This document shows positions 3,525 to 43,906 of a stretch of 46,499 bases of DNA, in pieces (positions within the stretch are counted from its first letter, which is position 1; the number at the start of each line of letters is the position of its first letter). The stretch is from Akkermansia muciniphila (lineage in GTDB: Bacteria; Verrucomicrobiota; Kiritimatiellia; RFP12; UBA1067): contig CAMBQV010000003.1 of assembly GCA_945870145.1 (NCBI GenBank), positions 1 through 46,499 on the forward strand. The letters are read 5' to 3'. A program made the position numbers and the translations under genes. Below the pieces are notes generated by a model. The model had not been told where the DNA came from. It worked only from the letters and a program-made list of their open reading frames with translations, and made no database searches.

Positions 3525-3528
3525 GCAA

Positions 3529-3554
3529 GGTGGCGCAGACATTTCTGTCTGCGC
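3529..3554. repeat. solo palindromic unit (GCGCAGACA-TTTC-TGTCTGCGC type)
   Basis: A perfect short palindrome, GCGCAGACA and TGTCTGCGC around a 4-nt pyrimidine loop, starting 5 bp after the preceding stop codon. It is nearly identical to the units of the doublet at 42251-42308. With no T run behind it, it is more a REP-like element than a terminator, although it could block exonucleases on the upstream mRNA. Confidence 0.6.
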
Positions 3555-3705: not shown

Positions 3706-3996
3706 ATGATTCAAACATACGAAACACAGGAATATGCTTCGTGGTTTTCACATCTTCGAGATCGCATGTCTAAAATGCGGATTTTGACGAGAATTCGTCG
3801 ACTGAGTATTGGAAACTTTGGCGATGTCAAACCAGTAGGCGAAGGTGTTTCTGAAATGAGGATTCATTGTGGGCCTGGGTATCGAATCTATTTCATTCAG
3901 CGAAATAAAGATGTTGTGATTTTGTTGGCAGGTGGCGAGAAAAGTAGCCAGACAAACGATATAAAGAAAGCTATTGCGCTTTCGAAAGTCTATTAG
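3706..3996 (+). CDS. RelE/HigB-superfamily toxin (HI1419-type addiction killer protein)
   Basis: A 96-residue basic protein with the pattern of the HI1419-type family: GNFGDVKPVGEGVSEMR (about 45-61), then a strand GPGYRIYF and the conserved LLAGGEKSSQ with a following DIKKA helix. Members of the RelE/HigB superfamily are ribosome-dependent mRNA interferases; the activity here is inferred from the family. It is the first gene of a two-gene module: its TAG overlaps the AGGAG ribosome-binding site of the antitoxin. Toxin-first order is typical of HigBA-like systems. The codon use is more AT-rich than that of the flanking enzymes, consistent with a mobile origin. Confidence 0.85.
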   Translation: MIQTYETQEYASWFSHLRDRMSKMRILTRIRRLSIGNFGDVKPVGEGVSEMRIHCGPGYRIYFIQRNKDVVILLAGGEKSSQTNDIKKAIALSKVY

Positions 3997-4009
3997 GAGT
4001 TATTATTTT

Positions 4010-4294
4010 ATGAAAGCAAAACTCAAAAAGTGGGATGCCGCTGAGCATCTGAAAACGAAAGAAGATATGGCGGCTTATATGGCCTGCGCCCTTGAAGAGG
4101 GTGATCCTGCTTTGATTGCCGCTGTTCTGGGGGATATTACTCGAGCGCAGGGAATGTCAAAAATTGCAAAAAAAACAGGCTTGGGACGAGAGAGCCTTTA
4201 CAAGACGCTTTCTATTGATGGGAATCCCGCCCTCGCAACAATATTGAAAGTGTTGGATGCACTTGGACTTAAGCTACAAGCTGTTCCAGTATAA
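4010..4294 (+). CDS. HTH antitoxin of HI1420 type
   Basis: A 94-residue protein matching the addiction-module antidote family that partners HI1419-type toxins: N-terminal WDAAEHLKTKEDMAAYM, then a helix-turn-helix around IAKKTGLGRESLYKTLS (about 52-69) and a C-terminal NPALATILKVLDALGLKL. It should bind and neutralise the toxin and repress the shared promoter, probably through the 3678-3699 palindrome. I moved the start from the track's upstream codon to ATG 4010, because AGGAG at 3995-3999 lies directly before it and overlaps the toxin stop. Confidence 0.87.
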   Translation: MKAKLKKWDAAEHLKTKEDMAAYMACALEEGDPALIAAVLGDITRAQGMSKIAKKTGLGRESLYKTLSIDGNPALATILKVLDALGLKLQAVPV

Positions 4295-10764: not shown

Positions 10765-11217
10765 GTGAAGATTTCCCCCCGCCACCTTTTGCCAGATTTC
10801 ATCAAAGTCGCCGTCGCGCTCGTCATTATCCTGCTAGCACTGGCTATTCTGTTGAAACCGCCCCTCTTGAAGAGCGACTTTCCGCGTGTTTCTTATACTT
10901 TTAATGGTAATACCTATACCAACGCGGTCTTGTATCGTCCGCTTGCGATGCCCACGCGGTACTACATTGAACTGCCGGAGACACTGGCTGGACGTTATCG
11001 CTGTTTTGCCGTGGATCGCCGGCGCGAGGTCGCTGCGCTCATGACCAATGAGCTGGCTCATACCTTCTTCGGATTGCCCGCTGTCAAGAGAGGGGAACCC
11101 CTGGGTATGGATCTGGAATTCCGCCATCTGGACGATTCCGTTTGGAACGTCGCTTTCCTGCCAGAGACCATTCTGTTCTCTAACGCCGTCCTGTCGGTCC
11201 GATTGGATATCAAATGA
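10765..11217 (+). CDS. membrane-anchored protein of unknown function
   Basis: A 150-residue protein with one N-terminal membrane helix (about 12-32, VAVALVIILLALAILL) and an extracytoplasmic beta-rich domain of about 115 residues. I recognise no family. The GTG start lies 6 bp after the GHKL ATPase stop, and its own TGA overlaps the ATG of the prenyltransferase, so the three are almost certainly one transcript. An alternative GTG lies 5 bp upstream in another frame and is not used. Confidence 0.65.
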   Translation: MKISPRHLLPDFIKVAVALVIILLALAILLKPPLLKSDFPRVSYTFNGNTYTNAVLYRPLAMPTRYYIELPETLAGRYRCFAVDRRREVAALMTNELAHTFFGLPAVKRGEPLGMDLEFRHLDDSVWNVAFLPETILFSNAVLSVRLDIK

Positions 11218-12143
11218 AGACACTTCGCCCATGGTTTCGCCTCGTGAGGCTTCCGAACCTCTTGACGGTTCCTGGGGATTCGATCGCTGGTTTTATGTTA
11301 GCGACCTTCGGACGGATGGAGCATATTCAAATGGGACCGCTCTTGTTCGCTATGGGTGCCGCGCTCTTTCTCTATCTCTTTGGCCTGATCGTAAATGATA
11401 TTGTTGACCTGGAGACCGACCGGACGGAACGGCCGGATCGGCCCCTGCCTGCAGGTGAGATCACCCTGCCGCAGGCGCGTATGGCTGCGATTGCCATGGC
11501 CCTGTCCGGCCTGAATGTCGCGCTCTTGGCAGGAAAATCCGCCTTGATCGTGGCCGGAATCCTCTCAGGCGCGATTCTGCTCTACAACGGAAAGCTCAAG
11601 AACGTTCCAGGGGTAGGGGCTCTGATCATGGGCAGTTGCCGGGGCCTGAGCGTGCTCCTCGGGGTGGCGGCCGCGCGTCCGGAGTGGTTTTTGTCGCTTC
11701 CCTCCACCTGTATAATCTGGCCCTCAATGCTTGCCCCGCTCATCGTGGCCCTTTATGTGGCGGCCTTTACGGCACTTGCAAGACGCGAAACCGAGCGTGA
11801 AAAGCCGATGGGGCCTCTGCGCTGGATACCCATGATTGTTCTGCTGCTTGGACTCCCCTGCCTTCTGATCATGGTCACGGCAATTGGGCTGACGACGGGG
11901 GTAGGACCCACAATCTTTGTCTTTATCTTCTGCATGGCGGTGATGCGTGCCTGGCTACTGGGGGGGCCGCTCTACCGTATTCAAGAGATGCCCTTAATTA
12001 TCGGAGGTTTTATTCGCAACCTGTTACTGGTTCAGGCCGCGCTCTGTGTGGCCTGCGGAACTGCTGGTCTCCTGCCGGCTGTGACGCTGGTCCTGCTCTT
12101 CGCCGTCTTCCCGCGCATTGCCAAGGCGTATTACAGCAGTTGA
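11214..12143 (+). CDS. UbiA-family membrane prenyltransferase
   Basis: A 309-residue membrane protein with about eight or nine helices. The first Asp-rich motif is intact in VNDIVDLETDRTERP (about 61-75), followed by RPLPAGEIT, both hallmarks of UbiA enzymes that bind the diphosphate through Mg2+. After YNGKLKNVPGVGALIMGSCR the usual second Asp-rich motif is not visible; instead the corresponding loop reads ALARRETEREKP. This is reminiscent of EboC-like UbiA relatives. The acceptor is unknown; quinone, lipid or other isoprenoid synthesis are all possible. Start codon and preceding stop overlap as ATGA. Confidence 0.85.
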   Translation: MKTLRPWFRLVRLPNLLTVPGDSIAGFMLATFGRMEHIQMGPLLFAMGAALFLYLFGLIVNDIVDLETDRTERPDRPLPAGEITLPQARMAAIAMALSGLNVALLAGKSALIVAGILSGAILLYNGKLKNVPGVGALIMGSCRGLSVLLGVAAARPEWFLSLPSTCIIWPSMLAPLIVALYVAAFTALARRETEREKPMGPLRWIPMIVLLLGLPCLLIMVTAIGLTTGVGPTIFVFIFCMAVMRAWLLGGPLYRIQEMPLIIGGFIRNLLLVQAALCVACGTAGLLPAVTLVLLFAVFPRIAKAYYSS

Positions 12144-12160: not shown

Positions 12161-12221
12161 CTGGGAGAATAGGCATCTTGCCTGTTTATTTCATGCACAG
12201 GCGGGACGCCTGTGCTCCCAG
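12161..12221. repeat. palindromic doublet with outer inverted arms
   Basis: Outer arms CTGGGAG and CTCCCAG enclose two palindromes: AGGC-ATCTT-GCCT and GCACAGGCG-GGA-CGCCTGTGC. One hairpin has a pyrimidine loop and the other a purine loop, i.e. inverted copies. The same architecture recurs at 34581-34632 and 42251-42308. Confidence 0.6.
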
Positions 12222-12357: not shown

Positions 12358-14775
12358 ATGAAAGTACCTATCAGCTGGTTAAACGAGTATGTGGATGTCT
12401 CTGATCTCTCTGTAAAAGATTTGGCCGACCGGCTGACCTTTTCAGGCGTTGAAGTGGAGGGCATCGAGGAGGTCGGAGCCCTATTGGATGACAACTTTGT
12501 CGTCGGTGAGATCCTGACGTGCGACCACCATCCGAACTCGGACCATCTGCATATCTGCAGCGTCTCGGACGGCGCGCAAACCTTGCAGATCGTCTGTGGT
12601 GCGCCCAATGCCGCTGCTGGACTCAAGGTGCCGCTGGCCAAGGTCGGAGCTGTTGTCCCGGAGGGGGGCTTTAAAATTAAGCAAGCGAAACTGCGCGGTG
12701 TGGAGTCTTTCGGTATGCTCTGCTCGCAGCGCGAACTGAAGCTCTCGTCCGAACATGGTGGCTTGATGGTTCTCGATCCTGCGCTCAAGACCGGCATGCC
12801 GATGCGCGATGTGTTGCCGAAACCCGAGGTGGTCCTAGACTTGGAGATCACCTGGAATCGTCCGGATTGTCTCTCAATCATCGGTATTGCCCGTGAATTT
12901 GCAGCGCTCCTGAAACGTCCGCTCAAGACACCAGCCATTGATTTTGTCGAAACCAGCGAGCCGGTCGAGAAATTTGCAAAGGTCATTGTGAAGGACACGG
13001 CCAAGTGTCCGCGGTATACGGCGCGTGTAATGACCGACGTGAAGGATGGCGCGTCGCCCGAGTGGATGAAACGGCGGCTTGAGCTATGCGGGGTTCGCGC
13101 GATCAGCCTGACCGTGGACGTCACCAATTACGTGATGCTTGAAATGGGCCAGCCCCTCCATGCCTTTGACTTCCGCAAACTTGCGGAAAACACGATTGTG
13201 GTCCGTTGCGCTGACGCGGGCGAAAAGATGAAGACCCTGGATGGCCTTGAGCGTACCTTAGACAACTCCATGCTTGTGATTGCAGATGCGAAGACGCCCA
13301 ATGCCATCGCGGGTGTCATGGGCGGCGCGGAGAGCGAAATCGCAGTCGGCACAGAGTCCGTGCTGCTGGAGAGCGCCCTCTTTGACTGCGCCTCGACCAA
13401 GTGGACGTCGACCAAGCTGGGGCTATCCAGCGAATCGTCACGCCGTTTCGAACGTGGCGTGGATCCTGACCTCGCGGACCTCGCCAGCCGTCGCGCAACG
13501 CACCTGCTGGCGAAATATGGCGAAGCCAAAGTCGCCAAGGGACTGATCGATTGCGATGCGCGCAATTTTAAGCACGCTGAGGTGGCGCTCCGCTTCAAGC
13601 GCGCCAATGACGTCATCGGTGTCGAGCTGACCCAAGAAGAGATGCTGATCCTATTGACCTCGCTCGGGCTCAGTGTCATTTCAAAAGAGGTGGATTCGGC
13701 GCGTTTTAAAATTCCCTCCTGGCGTTTGGATTTAACCTTGGAGGCGGATCTGATCGAGGAGATTGCGCGGTTGCATGGACTCGATTCAATCCCGGACCGG
13801 ATGCCGCGCTCAACCGCGATTTCCACCTTGAATGACGGCCCCTTCTATTTGCGCGCAAACTGCCGTCAGGCCCTGCTGGGCATGGGCTTTTCAGAGGGGA
13901 TGCACTACAGCTTCCTCGCAGCGCAAGAGCTGGACATGTTTGACAAGCGCAACGCCAAGGGGCGGGCCGTATTGCCCAATCCCGTCAGCGCTGACTATGG
14001 CGTCTTGCGCGACTCCCTGCTGCCCCAGTTGGTGGCTTCATTGGGACGCAATGCCGCGCGTCAAGTAGAGAAGGCCGGACTTTTTGAGATGGGGCGGGTC
14101 TTCTTCCTCGACGAAGCAGGCCAGCCAAAGGAGGAGGAGCGCGTCTCGCTCGGGCTGATGGGACCTTTTGGGCGTTCAGCGATTGATAGCCGCAGAGTGG
14201 TCTCCAACGAGGAGGCCATGCTGTGGCTAAAAGGCACCATCGAGAATCTTGTGGCCGTGCTTCATGCCGGCAAACTGGACTTCACACCTGTACAGCACCC
14301 TGGCATGGATTCGGGTTGCGCCCTTGAGATCTCGCTCAACAAGAGCGTGATAGGAGTCATGGGTGCGGTCTCAACAACCCTGCGTCATCAATGGCGCATG
14401 ACAACCGCAATGGTCGTGGCTGAACTCAAGCTAGCGCCGCTGCTCGCCGGAACGCCGACAGGCGGAGCGATCAAGCCGATTCCCCAATTTCCGGCAGTCC
14501 ATCGTGACATCGCCTTTGTGGCAACGTCGACACTCGCCCATGCGGACGTGCTCACGACCATCCGGAAGGCCGGACCTGCGGAGCTTACCGCTATCTCGCT
14601 CTTTGACATCTTCCAGTCCAAGGAGATGGCCAAAGAGGGAAAACGAAGTCTTGCCTATTCATTGGAGTTCCGTTCTCCGGATAAGACGCTCACCGATGAA
14701 GTCGTCAACGCAGCTTTCACCAAAATCATTGCCGCGCTCAAGAGCGAGCTGAAGGTCGAAGTCCGCGAAGCGTAA
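12358..14775 (+). CDS. pheT: phenylalanine-tRNA ligase beta subunit
   Basis: An 805-residue protein, the normal length for PheT, which with PheS forms the (alpha-beta)2 ligase that charges tRNA-Phe. Domains in order: B1 start MKVPISWLNEYVD, the EMAP/OB tRNA-binding domain (about 40-150, with HPNSDHLHIC), the B3/B4 editing domain (about 210-385), B5 (about 405-475), the catalytic-like core (about 480-680) and the C-terminal FDX-ACB anticodon-binding domain beginning near PIPQFPAVHRDIAFV. AAGGAAG lies 10 bp before the ATG. pheS is not adjacent, which is unusual since the two are often an operon. It converges with the ABC permease gene, 5 bp between stops. Confidence 0.96.
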   Translation: MKVPISWLNEYVDVSDLSVKDLADRLTFSGVEVEGIEEVGALLDDNFVVGEILTCDHHPNSDHLHICSVSDGAQTLQIVCGAPNAAAGLKVPLAKVGAVVPEGGFKIKQAKLRGVESFGMLCSQRELKLSSEHGGLMVLDPALKTGMPMRDVLPKPEVVLDLEITWNRPDCLSIIGIAREFAALLKRPLKTPAIDFVETSEPVEKFAKVIVKDTAKCPRYTARVMTDVKDGASPEWMKRRLELCGVRAISLTVDVTNYVMLEMGQPLHAFDFRKLAENTIVVRCADAGEKMKTLDGLERTLDNSMLVIADAKTPNAIAGVMGGAESEIAVGTESVLLESALFDCASTKWTSTKLGLSSESSRRFERGVDPDLADLASRRATHLLAKYGEAKVAKGLIDCDARNFKHAEVALRFKRANDVIGVELTQEEMLILLTSLGLSVISKEVDSARFKIPSWRLDLTLEADLIEEIARLHGLDSIPDRMPRSTAISTLNDGPFYLRANCRQALLGMGFSEGMHYSFLAAQELDMFDKRNAKGRAVLPNPVSADYGVLRDSLLPQLVASLGRNAARQVEKAGLFEMGRVFFLDEAGQPKEEERVSLGLMGPFGRSAIDSRRVVSNEEAMLWLKGTIENLVAVLHAGKLDFTPVQHPGMDSGCALEISLNKSVIGVMGAVSTTLRHQWRMTTAMVVAELKLAPLLAGTPTGGAIKPIPQFPAVHRDIAFVATSTLAHADVLTTIRKAGPAELTAISLFDIFQSKEMAKEGKRSLAYSLEFRSPDKTLTDEVVNAAFTKIIAALKSELKVEVREA

Positions 14776-32476: not shown

Positions 32477-34489
32477 ATGGATGTAAACAGAGGAAATATT
32501 GCTTTTGATGTCATCGTTGTCGGCGGTGGCCATGCCGGCTGTGAAGCTGCCTTGGTAAGCGCTCGGATGGGGTGCAAAACCCTCCTGGTCACCAGCTCGA
32601 AGAAGGCCATCGCTAAGATGCCTTGTAACCCATCGATCGGCGGCCTGGCCAAGTCGCACTTGGTCTATGAGCTGGACGCCTTAGGAGGGGAGATGGGAAT
32701 CAATGCCGATCTTTGCGGGATCCAGGCGAAGATGTTGAATGTCAGCCGCGGACCTGCGGTCCAAGCTACCCGGACCCAGTGCGACAAGGAAGTTTACGCT
32801 ACCCGAATGCAAAAGGTGGTCCAGACGACCGCCAATTGCCTCATTCTGGAGGATGAGGTCATCGACCTTGTGATAGAGAATGATCACGTGTCAGGTGTGA
32901 TAACCGCTCAAAACGGTGTGATTTCAGGTGCGACCATCGTATTGACCACGGGAACGGCGTTGGCTGGAAAGATCTTTATTGGTCAGGAGATGGAGGCAGG
33001 AGGAGGAGATGGCCGTTCAGCAGCCACAAAGCTCGCGGAGTCGCTCCGCAAGCGTGGATTTCCCCTGTTTAGACTGAAGACCGGCACGCCACCTCGACTG
33101 ATTGCCAAGAGCATTGATTGGTCCAAGACGGCACCTCAGCCTGGGGATGAACCTCCGCCATTTTTCTCCATTCAAACCAAAATGTTCCACGTGGAACAAT
33201 CGGGTTGTTCTTCAAGCTTAGTTGCGCCTCATCATCAAGGTAGAGACATTCGGGACGCAAATACCTTTTTTAACCTCGAGGATAGGAAATGTTCCACGTG
33301 GAACATTTTGAGACCGTGGACTCCCGGCTCAGACCCGATTCCTTGTTGGTTGACCCATACCACGGAGCAGACGCATGAGATTATTCGTTCAAACCTGAGC
33401 GCCAGCGCGATGTATGGTGGTCTCATTGAAGGTACTGGTGTCCGCTATTGCCCATCGATTGAGGACAAGGTCGTTAAATTTGCAGATGCTACGCAACATC
33501 ACGTCTTTCTGGAGCCAGAGGGAAGGTCCACTGACTGGATCTATCCGAATGGCCTCTCAAATAGTTTGCCCCGTGCGGTACAAGAGGCGTTTGTCCGTAG
33601 CATTCCAGGTCTCGAGCTGGCTGAGTTTGCGCAATATGCCTATGCTATCGAATATGATGCCGTTGATGCTCGGGATTTACTTCACACCTTGGAGAGTAAG
33701 CGTGTGGCCGGACTCTACTTCGCCGGGCAGGTTAATGGCACAACCGGTTACGAAGAGGCTGCAACCCAGGGATTCATGGCAGGAGCCAATGCCGCGCTCC
33801 GTGTCCAAGGTCGCGAACCCTTTGTGTTGAGTCGTCAAGACGCCTATATCGGCGTGATGATCGACGACCTGGTCACAAAAGGCACCAACGAACCCTATCG
33901 CATGTTTACCTCGCGTGCGGAACGACGGTTAATACTGAGACAAGACAATGCGCGGTACCGGTTGCTTTCAGCAGCTGACATGTTGGGCGTCGCTCCAGCG
34001 GCTTGTAGGCAACAGACTAAGGCCTTTGAAATCGAGATTTCTGCTGAGCTGGAACGCTTGGCCTCGCATCGGGTCGAGGGACAGACACTCTTTTCCCTGC
34101 TTTCGCGTCCAGGTATGCGTTACGCAGATATCCCTAAACGGAATAACGGAATAATGGAATCATGGAATACAGGGGAAGGAGTGGTGACAACCGGTTCCGC
34201 CCAATCCCATCATTCCATTGATGTCATTGATCAGATAGAGCTCCGGGTTAAATATGCCGGATACATTGCCCAAGAGGAACGGGTCGCGTTAAAGGCCAAA
34301 GGCCAGGATTCAATTAAGATCCCAGGATGGCTGGACTATTGGAAGATTCCGGCGTTACGTTACGAGTGCCGCGAGAAGCTTTCCAAGATCAAGCCCGAGA
34401 ACCTTGGGCAGGCAGCTCGTATCCCTGGCGTCAACCCTCCGGATATCGCCGTCCTCGCACTCACCATCAAACGCGGCCACCATGTATAA
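32477..34489 (+). CDS. mnmG: tRNA U34 modification FAD enzyme MnmG with two insertions
   Basis: A 670-residue partner of MnmE. FAD-binding start [16 protein letters not shown] (10-25), [22 protein letters not shown] (50-71), RLKTGTPPR (199-207), [27 protein letters not shown] and the C-terminal helical domain ([15 protein letters not shown]) are all present. E. coli MnmG has 629 residues. Two extra segments account for the surplus: about 45 residues within 233-287, encoding two parS-type palindromes, and about 16 residues near 554-585, encoding an imperfect palindrome related to the repeat behind the gene. Both keep frame and fall between conserved blocks. The Shine-Dalgarno is weak (GAGAGAA). 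The enzyme is probably functional, since all core motifs remain. Confidence 0.95.
33183..33198. promoter_or_regulatory. parS-type centromere site 1, inside mnmG
   Basis: TGTTCCACGTGGAACA, a perfect 16-bp palindrome equal to the known chromosomal parS consensus (TGTTNCACGTGNAACA) bound by ParB. In mnmG it is read as codons spanning M-F-H-V-E-Q. It lies in a segment absent from ordinary MnmG. Confidence 0.85.
33290..33305. promoter_or_regulatory. parS-type centromere site 2, inside mnmG
   Basis: A second identical TGTTCCACGTGGAACA, 107 bp from the first and in a different reading frame (C-S-T-W-N). Two identical 16-mers translated differently in one gene indicate selection on DNA. Confidence 0.85.
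34153..34219. repeat. imperfect palindromic element inside mnmG
   Basis: AATGGAATCATGG (34153-34165) and CCATCATTCCATT (34207-34219) pair with one mismatch around a 41-nt loop. The words resemble the GGAATxxTGGAATxxGGG repeat at 34531-34561 and its partner at 34645-34682. Confidence 0.5.
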
Positions 34490-34530: not shown

Positions 34531-34682
34531 AATGGAATGTTGGAATATGGGAATGATGGGGAAAGCCTGTGTGCTATACTGGTGTGCAGGCGTCTTCGCC
34601 TGCACAAGTACGGGCGAGGACGCCCGTACACCGGTTTTTAAGCACCCCATTCTTCCAGTATTCCACCATCCCATTATTCCCT
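34531..34682. repeat. nested inverted repeat with two internal palindromes
   Basis: Outer arms are GGAATGTTGGAATATGGG and its imperfect complement near 34650-34680 (CAGTATTCCACCATCCC). Inside, GGTGT...ACACC (34581-34632) encloses GTGCAGGCG-TCTT-CGCCTGCAC and GTACGGGCG-AGGA-CGCCCGTAC. The inner part has the same doublet design as 12161-12221 and 42251-42308. Confidence 0.6.
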
Positions 34683-41713: not shown

Positions 41714-42214
41714 ATGAAAAAAATAGGAATGTTGTTTGTCATGTTAGCGTTAGTCGCCGTTATAGGGCTAACTCAAAAAGCGCCGGCTGATGTGTCCGCA
41801 CGCCTCAAGGAACTGAACAGCTACTGGGCGGAGGTCTCCCGCTGTGTCCGAGAAGGGGACTTTGCGGGCTACAAGGCAACCTGCCATCCGGAGGGTGTCA
41901 TTGTCTCCGGAACAAGCCAGAAAGCGTATCCCCTTTCAGAAGCGCTCGTTCGCTGGGAGCAGGATTTTACCAATACAAAATCAGGCAAAGTGAAAGGTAA
42001 CGTGGTATTTCGATTCAGCCAGCGGCTGGGCGATAGAACCACGGCCCACGAGACCGGCATGTTCTGCTATACCACGTTTAAACCCGATGGCACCAGTAGC
42101 AATGACTATATTCATCTGGAAGCCCTGCTGCTGAAACGCGGCACTTGGCAAATCATGATGGAGTATCAGAAGTCACGCGGCACCGAAGAAGAGTGGAATA
42201 AACTTAAGGAGTAA
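41714..42214 (+). CDS. secreted NTF2/SnoaL-like (DUF4440-type) protein
   Basis: A 166-residue protein with signal peptide residues 1-25 (MLFVMLALVAVIGL, cleaved near PAD). The mature part has the pattern of an NTF2-fold domain: a helix (LKELNSYWAEVSRCVREGDFAGY), HPEGVIV, then strands (VVFRFSQRLGD, GMFCYTTF, HLEALLLKRGTWQIMMEYQ). Such domains are often small-molecule binding or structural; no catalytic residue can be assigned. AGGAAAGGAAATC before the ATG gives a good ribosome-binding site. Confidence 0.72.
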   Translation: MKKIGMLFVMLALVAVIGLTQKAPADVSARLKELNSYWAEVSRCVREGDFAGYKATCHPEGVIVSGTSQKAYPLSEALVRWEQDFTNTKSGKVKGNVVFRFSQRLGDRTTAHETGMFCYTTFKPDGTSSNDYIHLEALLLKRGTWQIMMEYQKSRGTEEEWNKLKE

Positions 42215-42250
42215 GTTGCTGTACGGTGCGGGCGGCGGGTCTACATCTAA

Positions 42251-42308
42251 GGTGTGGCAGACATTCCTGTCTGCCTTTTATTGCGCAGACAGGAATGTCT
42301 GCGCCACC
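42251..42308. repeat. palindromic doublet between orphan and serA
   Basis: GGCAGACA-TTCC-TGTCTGCC, an 8-nt spacer, then GCGCAGACA-GGAA-TGTCTGCGC, enclosed by GGTG/CACC ends. The whole also forms one long hairpin. It lies between convergent genes and could end transcription from both sides, but there is no T run. Confidence 0.65.
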
Positions 42309-42331
42309 TTTCTGAACCCTGCCCCCACTCC

Positions 42332-43906
42332 CTACACCTCCGTACAAACCGCGGCGTGGGCGTTGATCTCTTTGCGGATGTCCGCCATGAGTTTTTCACC
42401 GACGCAGGTGTTTACCTTGACGATCGCGAGGGAGCGGTTCGTCTTAGGATCATGCGGATTGCGCATGTCTTCGATGTTGATGCCCGCATCGGCCAGTTTA
42501 CGGCTGATGGTGGCGATGACACCGGGACGGTCGTCGTAGACACAGAAGAGCGTCATGCCGTTTGGTTCGAAGTAGAGACGGTCGAATTCGTCAATGCGTG
42601 AAACCATGAGGTGGCTCTCGGTCACTGTGCCGCGGATGCTGTAGCGACGAAGTTGCTTGTCCTCGCGTTCCACAGTCATATCCACGGTCAACGCATTACC
42701 ATAGCCCTTGTCAATCGTTTCGCGGTTCACGAGCTCAATACCCATATCCTTGAGGAACTTGAGCGCCGCCTTGTAGTCGTTGTAACGGTCGAAATCGGTC
42801 CAGAGTCCGGAGAGGACCGAGACGGTCAGCCACTTGCTGAAGGGCGCGAGCTGTCCGTAGAAACTGGTCTCCAGAATCTTGATCGGACGGGTTGTGCCGG
42901 CGATCTGACGGATGAGCATGGAGAGCTGATAGGCCAGTTCGCAATAGGCGCGTTCGAGTCCGTCGGGGATATCGCGGTTGACGATGCAACTCATATCGCC
43001 CTTTTCATCCAGATCAATGAGCTCCTTGGCGGCGCGTTCGGCAGCCACATAGTTCGCCTCATTGGTGTTGGCGCCCAGATGGGGGAGCATGAGGTCGGCG
43101 ATGTCCGCCATCGGCTTCGGTCCTGCCTCGTCCTTGGTGTAAACATCGTTCAGATAGCGCAGTCCCTTTTCCGCCTTGATGGCGCGGAAGGCATCCTCGT
43201 CAATGATGCCATAGCGTGCGCAGTTGACAAGGGTGGCGCCCTTCTTCATCAGGCCGAGTAGCTTGGTGCTGACGAGGTTCTTGGTGCTTTCACCGCCCGG
43301 GATGTGAAGGGTAACGTAATCGCACTGGGCGAAAATCTGTTCGAGGGTTGCGCTCTCGATGCCCAGATCGCGCATGCGGTCCGTGGTGATGATCGGGTCG
43401 TATGCGAGGAAGCGGCACTCAAACCCAGTCAGACGCTTGGCGACTAGGCGTCCGATGTTACCGAGACCGACAATGCCGACGGTCTTGCCGGTGAGCTCCT
43501 TGCCCATGTATTTGTTCTTCTCCCAGAGACCTGCGCGCGTGGTCGTGTCACCTGCAACGATATGGCGCGCGTCCGCCAGCATCATGGCAATCACCTCTTC
43601 AGCTACGCCATTCGCATTGGCGCCTGGGGTGTTCATGACATCCACCCCTTTTTTGCGGGCATGCTTGATGTCAATCGTGTCAAAACCTGCGCCAGCGCGG
43701 ACCACAACCTTCAACTGGGGCAGGGCATCCATGATTGCATCGGAGACTTTTTCACTGCGCACGATGAGGGCGTAGGTTTCCGGGTGGAGCTTTACCAGCT
43801 CTTCGATGGGGGTCTTTCCGTCCTGAACCACGGCGTAACCGCCATGTGCCTTGAGAAGGTCAGCCGCGACGGAATCTAACTTTGTTGGGATAAGAACCTT
43901 TTTCAT
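42332..43906 (-). CDS. serA: D-3-phosphoglycerate dehydrogenase
   Basis: A 524-residue enzyme of serine synthesis, the long form. Catalytic domain with the NAD fold GIVGLGNIGRLVAKRL (about 144-159); catalytic Arg in NCARYGIIDEDAF, Glu in DVYTKDEAGPKP and His in LPHLGANTNEA. After about residue 315 comes an intervening (ASB-like) domain, then a C-terminal ACT domain (about 450-524, CVYDDRPGVIATISRKLADAGINI) that senses serine in relatives. AAGGGA precedes the ATG. It is divergent from the next operon. The long type is common in Gram-positives and many other phyla. Confidence 0.95.
   Translation of the reverse strand: MKKVLIPTKLDSVAADLLKAHGGYAVVQDGKTPIEELVKLHPETYALIVRSEKVSDAIMDALPQLKVVVRAGAGFDTIDIKHARKKGVDVMNTPGANANGVAEEVIAMMLADARHIVAGDTTTRAGLWEKNKYMGKELTGKTVGIVGLGNIGRLVAKRLTGFECRFLAYDPIITTDRMRDLGIESATLEQIFAQCDYVTLHIPGGESTKNLVSTKLLGLMKKGATLVNCARYGIIDEDAFRAIKAEKGLRYLNDVYTKDEAGPKPMADIADLMLPHLGANTNEANYVAAERAAKELIDLDEKGDMSCIVNRDIPDGLERAYCELAYQLSMLIRQIAGTTRPIKILETSFYGQLAPFSKWLTVSVLSGLWTDFDRYNDYKAALKFLKDMGIELVNRETIDKGYGNALTVDMTVEREDKQLRRYSIRGTVTESHLMVSRIDEFDRLYFEPNGMTLFCVYDDRPGVIATISRKLADAGINIEDMRNPHDPKTNRSLAIVKVNTCVGEKLMADIRKEINAHAAVCTEV

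Follow-up and report, generated by a model that had tools for sequence, protein, structure and literature searches.

The 46,499-nucleotide stretch of DNA analysed here (the window, contig 3 of a 2.43 Mb genome that is 79% complete and lies in 162 contigs) carries paired hairpins that recur with different stems and similar loops, which raises the question of what these elements are and how they spread. The hairpin pairs belong to at least five small mobile repeat families. The explanation that we propose, and hold with high confidence, is that each pair consists of two REP units in head-to-head orientation, or a BIME (REPIN-like), and that these doublets are non-autonomous and are spread in trans by RAYTs (TnpA-REP), which are single-strand transposases of the HUH/Y1 type. 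The analysis covers the anatomy, copy number and covariation of the elements, their association with RAYTs, the RAYT-REP correlation and one empty site.

The three doublets and the solo unit that a sequence-only reading had picked out in the window are real, and all four are intergenic. Specifically, the doublet at 12161-12221 (family E, no strand assigned) has outer arms CTGGGAG/CTCCCAG and two inverted units that form the hairpins ATAGGCA-TCT-TGCCTGT and GCACAGGCG-GGA-CGCCTGTGC, with a UbiA-family gene (11214-12143) on one side and pheT (12358-14775) on the other. The doublet at 34581-34632 (family B, 34578..34635 with margins, no strand assigned) has mnmG/gidA (32477-34489) upstream and is built on two different stems, GTGCAGGCG and GTACGGGCG, in the hairpins TGTGCAGGCG-TCTT-CGCCTGCACA and GTACGGGCG-AGGA-CGCCCGTAC. 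The doublet at 42251-42308 (family A, 42249..42310 with margins, no strand assigned) has AAGGTG/CACCTT outer arms, CAGACA stems and a TTCC loop in the hairpins GGCAGACA-TTCC-TGTCTGCC and GCGCAGACA-GGAA-TGTCTGCGC, and it is flanked by an ORF (41714-42214) and a convergent 2-hydroxyacid dehydrogenase gene on the minus strand (42332-43906). Finally, the solo family-A unit (3527..3554, plus strand) consists of an AAGGTG tag followed by the hairpin GCGCAGACA-TTTC-TGTCTGCGC at 3533-3554. An addiction-module antidote-like gene (PF21716) is present near this solo unit at 3974-4294.

When read on one strand, each unit has a tag (GGTG, GTGG, GGAG or GGGG), a perfect stem of 7-10 bp and a loop of the TCC/TCT/TTCC/TCCT type, and a doublet is one such unit plus an inverted unit with a few bases in between. 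Since the second hairpin is an inverted copy of the first unit, what had been described as a pyrimidine and a purine type of loop is one loop seen on two strands, with GGAA being TTCC on the other strand. Perfect hairpins with a stem of at least 9 bp and a loop of 3-6 number six in the window versus 0-3 in five shuffles, and five of these six are parts of the doublets or the solo unit. An Rfam scan of the window returned two tRNAs only, with no known RNA family accounting for the hairpins. These hairpins might also be read as plain intergenic terminators, or mRNA-end hairpins, that arose separately at each gene, given that the window copies lie at gene ends and that T-rich stretches with a terminator-like score follow 34608-34629 and 42256-42275. 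However, terminator-like sites are not in excess in the window (10 versus 9.7 in shuffles), family copies with a common sequence occur at unrelated places in solo, doubled and tandem forms, and units of this design flank a transposase gene while one copy is absent in a congener, as described below. A separate origin as terminators is thus very unlikely, and a terminator role of the doublets could be secondary.

The interpretation as mobile repeats draws on the distribution of the elements across the rest of the genome, where the copy counts, being based on searches, are minimum values. Overall, the stems sort into discrete families with near-identical copies. Family A (AAGGTG tag, CAGACA stem; CGCAGACA-TTCC) occupies about 10 places, family B (GTGCAGGCG-TCCT / GTACGGGCG-TCCT) about 11 places, family D (CACGGACT-TTCC / AACGGGTT-TTCC) about 10 places and family E (CTGGGAG, ACAGGCA-TCT) six places including 12161, and family C (GGGAGC, loop TCY) is found around a RAYT gene and as one isolated unit, being hardly amplified elsewhere. 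A pattern for families A and B gave 29 genome matches versus 4 for its reversed control. A covariance model built from 11 doublets of families A, B and D detected 33 doublets at E<=1e-3, with 22 of the 33 outside of the model-building set, and it recovered the 12161 doublet at 44.8 bits with no family-E copy in the building set. The elements are thus not limited to a few copies genome-wide, which would have spoken against this interpretation; they are multicopy, arranged in inverted pairs and mainly intergenic, as judged from these doublets and the window copies. In regards to the tag, GTGG stands directly 5' of the family-A stem, and families D and E carry GGGG or GGAG and not a strict GT[AG]G. 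At one spot (L109, G000:C113:1568-1787) a stretch of 220 bases contains a doublet of family D, a unit of family C and a doublet of family E, which looks as if this spot were collecting different REP families.

In the model alignment 92.8% of the cells pair and 17 of the 24 pairs show two-sided changes. The covariation score of 0.679, versus 0.248 in shuffled alignments (0/500) and at most 0.24 when the alignment is slid, reports on the freedom of the stems and is not independent proof of structure, as the alignment rows are families chosen partly for forming hairpins.

A different picture of the boundaries is obtained for families A and B. Copies of family A, including the solo-type unit, have the unit alone in common and have unrelated flanks, and the eight other family-B copies aligned to the 34581 copy show that this repeat extends into TGGAAT-type arrays on both sides. 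The family-B copies could therefore be taken to indicate MITE-like elements that are moved by a different transposase and that carry the hairpins as passengers, as these copies sit within a longer repeat. This is contradicted by the family-A copies that have no TGGAAT-type flank, and by the bare hairpin unit being both the common part and what flanks RAYT genes, so that we give the MITE-like explanation very little weight. Degenerate TGGAATNNTGGAAT arrays in inverted orientation surround the family-B doublet in the window (34531-34560 and 34645-34680), and TGGAATNNTGGAAT arrays are also free-standing near the gene upstream of pheT in a same-genus genome (G001, locus L203), perhaps as a second repeat family.

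Comparison with this same-genus genome addressed whether each copy is orthologous and fixed, which is not the case at the one of four window sites that allowed a clean comparison. Specifically, the 42251 site is empty in G001, where both flanks are 91-93% identical and the doublet is absent; around the 12161 site, G001 has a different arrangement of genes upstream of pheT. This congener has its own B-type doublets in which outer pairs are changed on both sides (GGTGT/ACACC to GGCGT/ACGCC), and the identical 70-bp family-B copies on several of its contigs point, by their sequence, to a recent spread there. The likeness to REP/BIME doublets noted in the sequence-only reading is thus borne out by the multicopy families, by the units that flank a RAYT and by the empty site in a congener.

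A search for a RAYT-type Y1 transposase, which had been suggested as a check, did find such a gene in the same genome with doublets of the same design on both flanks. Four Y1_Tnp genes are present (L001, L002, L003 and L004), and L002 on contig C95 has family-C doublets on both sides that overlap both ends of its reading frame. The L002 protein matches PF01797 and has NHVH as its HUH motif and YIRNNP as its Y motif, with H119, H121 and Y179 being invariant in 45 sequences; the HUH histidines and the Y motif are kept in its relatives. Its closest REP-bound solved protein is the E. coli TnpA-REP 4er8 (profile E 9.6e-7), and an AlphaFold model (pLDDT 86) superimposes on 4er8 with an rmsd of 3.3 and the top TM-score among the leading matches. 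The best NCBIfam match is REP_Tyr_transpos at 71.7 bits, under the 80-bit cut-off, and we therefore describe this protein as belonging to a divergent RAYT clade and not as a member of the curated equivalog. A hairpin scan around L001, L003, L004 and the Y1 transposases of G001 revealed no such doublets, and these genes were set aside as obvious sources of the REPs. L001 (G000:C133) is located directly downstream of a reverse-transcriptase-like ORF that resembles a group II intron maturase. For families A, B, D and E, neither the own genome (79% complete) nor, within this clade of RAYTs, G001 (92% complete) yielded a cognate RAYT. These families may be orphans, or their RAYT may be encoded in the part of the genome that the assembly lacks.

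Relatives provide further RAYTs of the clade with matching repeats. Scanning genome contigs gave 73 testable named RAYT loci, of which 44 are bordered on both sides by matching hairpins, versus none of 112 control places taken from these loci, and in a wider set 70 of 107 RAYT loci have matching units on both sides. For example, family-A-like units flank a RAYT (L062) in a same-family genome (G026) and E-like units flank another (L046) in G032. A cognate RAYT between matching units is thus seen for family C, but not for families A, B, D or E, in the own, incomplete genome; relatives show it for A-like and similar families. The carriers are mostly Verrucomicrobiota, Kiritimatiellae and Planctomycetota, and plasmid records contain almost no RAYT relatives (two distant matches).

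The units around these 70 RAYTs also bear on what the enzyme would read. Their loops are TCC in 30, TCT in nine and TTCC in five cases, their tags are GTAG (15), GTGG (13), GGAG (12), GGGG (9) or GGTG (7), and the 70 stem 7-mers include 55 different ones. Loop-proximal stem bases are favoured, with C at -2 in 56/70, G at -4 in 48/70 and G at -3 in 44/70, and REP distance rises with RAYT distance (Mantel r 0.28, 0/2000). The sequence-only reading had proposed that stems which vary while loops stay alike suggest a structure-recognising mobilising enzyme. The idea of a RAYT, the constancy of the loop and the two-sided stem changes are supported, but recognition by shape alone is not. A single family recognised by shape only, with stems that drift freely with compensation, would agree with the full pairing, with the many two-sided changes and with a same-family relative (G016) that keeps the AAGGTGG tag and TTCC loop on a stem of CACGGGCA in place of CGCAGACA. 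This reading is unsupported because the tag, loop and inner stem bases are conserved as well; in addition, the stems of the own genome cluster in discrete near-identical families and REP similarity tracks RAYT similarity. We consider it unlikely, and the repeats instead form several families that are defined by sequence, with each family presumably having a RAYT of its own that reads it.

How RAYTs would spread such units can be outlined from work on the TnpA-REP proteins of E. coli, Stenotrophomonas and Marinomonas, by analogy with which folding in vivo, cleavage and transposition are deduced here. A unit that becomes single-stranded, for example on the lagging-strand template, would fold, and the RAYT would recognise its tag on the 5' side (GTGG/GTAG/GGAG), its T-pyrimidine loop and the stem bases closest to this loop. 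The RAYT tyrosine would then cut beside the hairpin, and the doublet would be moved or copied to a new site. Selection would hold the pairing, the tag and the loop, with the remaining stem being changeable if both arms change, and each RAYT lineage would maintain its own version, giving several families of one design. TnpA-REP enzymes are known to bind folded single-stranded REPs via the tag (PMC8266576, PMC6006769), and in the group with short perfect palindromes (group-3 TnpA-REP) the loop bases are essential with no change tolerated (PMC8266576). Binding via the tag and invariant loop bases fits with a constant loop on changing outer stems.

Additional analysis of the RAYT loci revealed, unexpectedly, that many of these genes lie in frame within other genes. 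In 37 of 80 named loci the reading frame of the RAYT continues open for at least 100 aa both before and after the gene, versus 1 of 160 cases for the remaining two forward frames, which excludes chance as the cause and also holds in genomes of 32-36% GC. An assembly artefact is unlikely given the many unrelated genomes, which include the cultured Flavobacterium branchiophilum NBRC 15030 (L123) and Pontiellaceae B12227 (L132). One locus with an open frame of 963 aa (L100) was left out as it belongs to a different Y1 group and its long frame is apparently spurious. Pfam shows a single host protein that is split around the RAYT, with REP-encoded linkers such as GSAGVSPV and HGQDAHAT. The hosts are LeuRS, ValRS, AlaRS, CCA-adding enzyme, CarB, Sua5, XseA, IspG, MetH and UxaC as well as FAD-binding proteins, Eco57I-type methylases, HsdR, MmeI and SNF2 helicases. 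L136, L173, L161, L185, L174 and L147, among others, have a RAYT and flanking REPs in frame within essential or restriction genes. In an HsdR-nested RAYT (L085, G120) the RAYT domain is itself interrupted by REP-encoded sequence at about residues 890-940 of a 1237-aa frame.

In the four draft genomes tested, no copy other than the RAYT-bearing one passes the family cut-off for LeuRS (two genomes), IspG and AlaRS. Where carriers have an insertion in common, their host and RAYT parts diverge to a similar extent, and nested RAYTs show a dN/dS of ~0.06-0.16 where not saturated. The RAYT tree mixes nested with free copies; most carriers of one host gene cluster together, but more than one change is required for the Eco57I, HsdR and SNF2 hosts. 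This indicates many captures, after each of which the RAYT was passed on together with the host gene. Scanning the nested proteins with Pfam found no Hint splicing domain, and the insert appears to stay in the host protein. The reading that these observations suggest, to which we give an even chance, is that RAYTs with their REPs repeatedly insert in frame in host genes, including sole copies of the essential LeuRS, AlaRS and IspG genes, and are long kept under purifying selection as an unspliced inner domain with the stop-free repeats as linkers, a natural gene entanglement. With repeats that are stop-free in the used frame and a transposase inside of an enzyme, the host could not lose the transposase by frameshift or stop without losing the enzyme. 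This in-frame habit would be either an adaptive strategy or the survivorship of tolerated insertions.

These features can be placed against several known systems. As in REP/BIME/REPIN systems with a RAYT (TnpA-REP), or REPtrons, there is a GT[AG]G-type tag, a short perfect hairpin, a 3-4 nt loop, inverted pairs, multiple copies, a transposase gene flanked by its own units and several families per genome; unlike in these systems, several families here have GGAG/GGGG/GGTG tags, the transposase is often in frame inside host genes and its REP_Tyr_transpos score is under the cut-off. TnpA-Y1 subclass 2.4 (Bertels group 4; PMC6006769) shares the NHVH and YIxNNP motifs, a length of ~190 residues and varied phyla, but this clade has a W motif of WQ or WLH, short REPs and T-pyrimidine loops, and the assignment is by motif reading only. 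REPs within coding sequence are known, with Opitutus terrae being richest (PMC3733652), and these intragenic REPs and the Rickettsia palindromic elements are likewise palindromes that are read in frame as part of proteins, with DNA-repair genes and tRNA synthetases among them; those cases involve 20-80 residues of repeat, in contrast to the whole transposase gene plus flanking units seen here. Inteins with homing endonucleases also place a mobile-element enzyme domain in frame within essential genes, and related hosts often carry it at one and the same position, but Pfam detects no splicing domain here and the insert probably remains in the protein. The literature that we searched, a partial coverage that does not prove absence, held no description of in-frame nested RAYTs. 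The window elements are new examples of the known REP/BIME type, with the design of the clade and its in-frame habit being the new part.

RAYTs are usually single copy and do not amplify themselves, and this raises the question of how they persist while spreading REPs. In-frame entanglement, if true, would help explain the persistence of both RAYT and REP. The in-frame residents in essential genes suggest such a route, one that was probably filtered out of earlier surveys in which unexpectedly long TnpA-Y1 proteins were discarded as gene fusions or annotation errors before analysis (PMC6006769). Finally, with many natural RAYT-REP pairs in which the loop type is constant while the tags differ and 55 distinct stems occur, the clade is a ready set for finding the bases that each enzyme reads.
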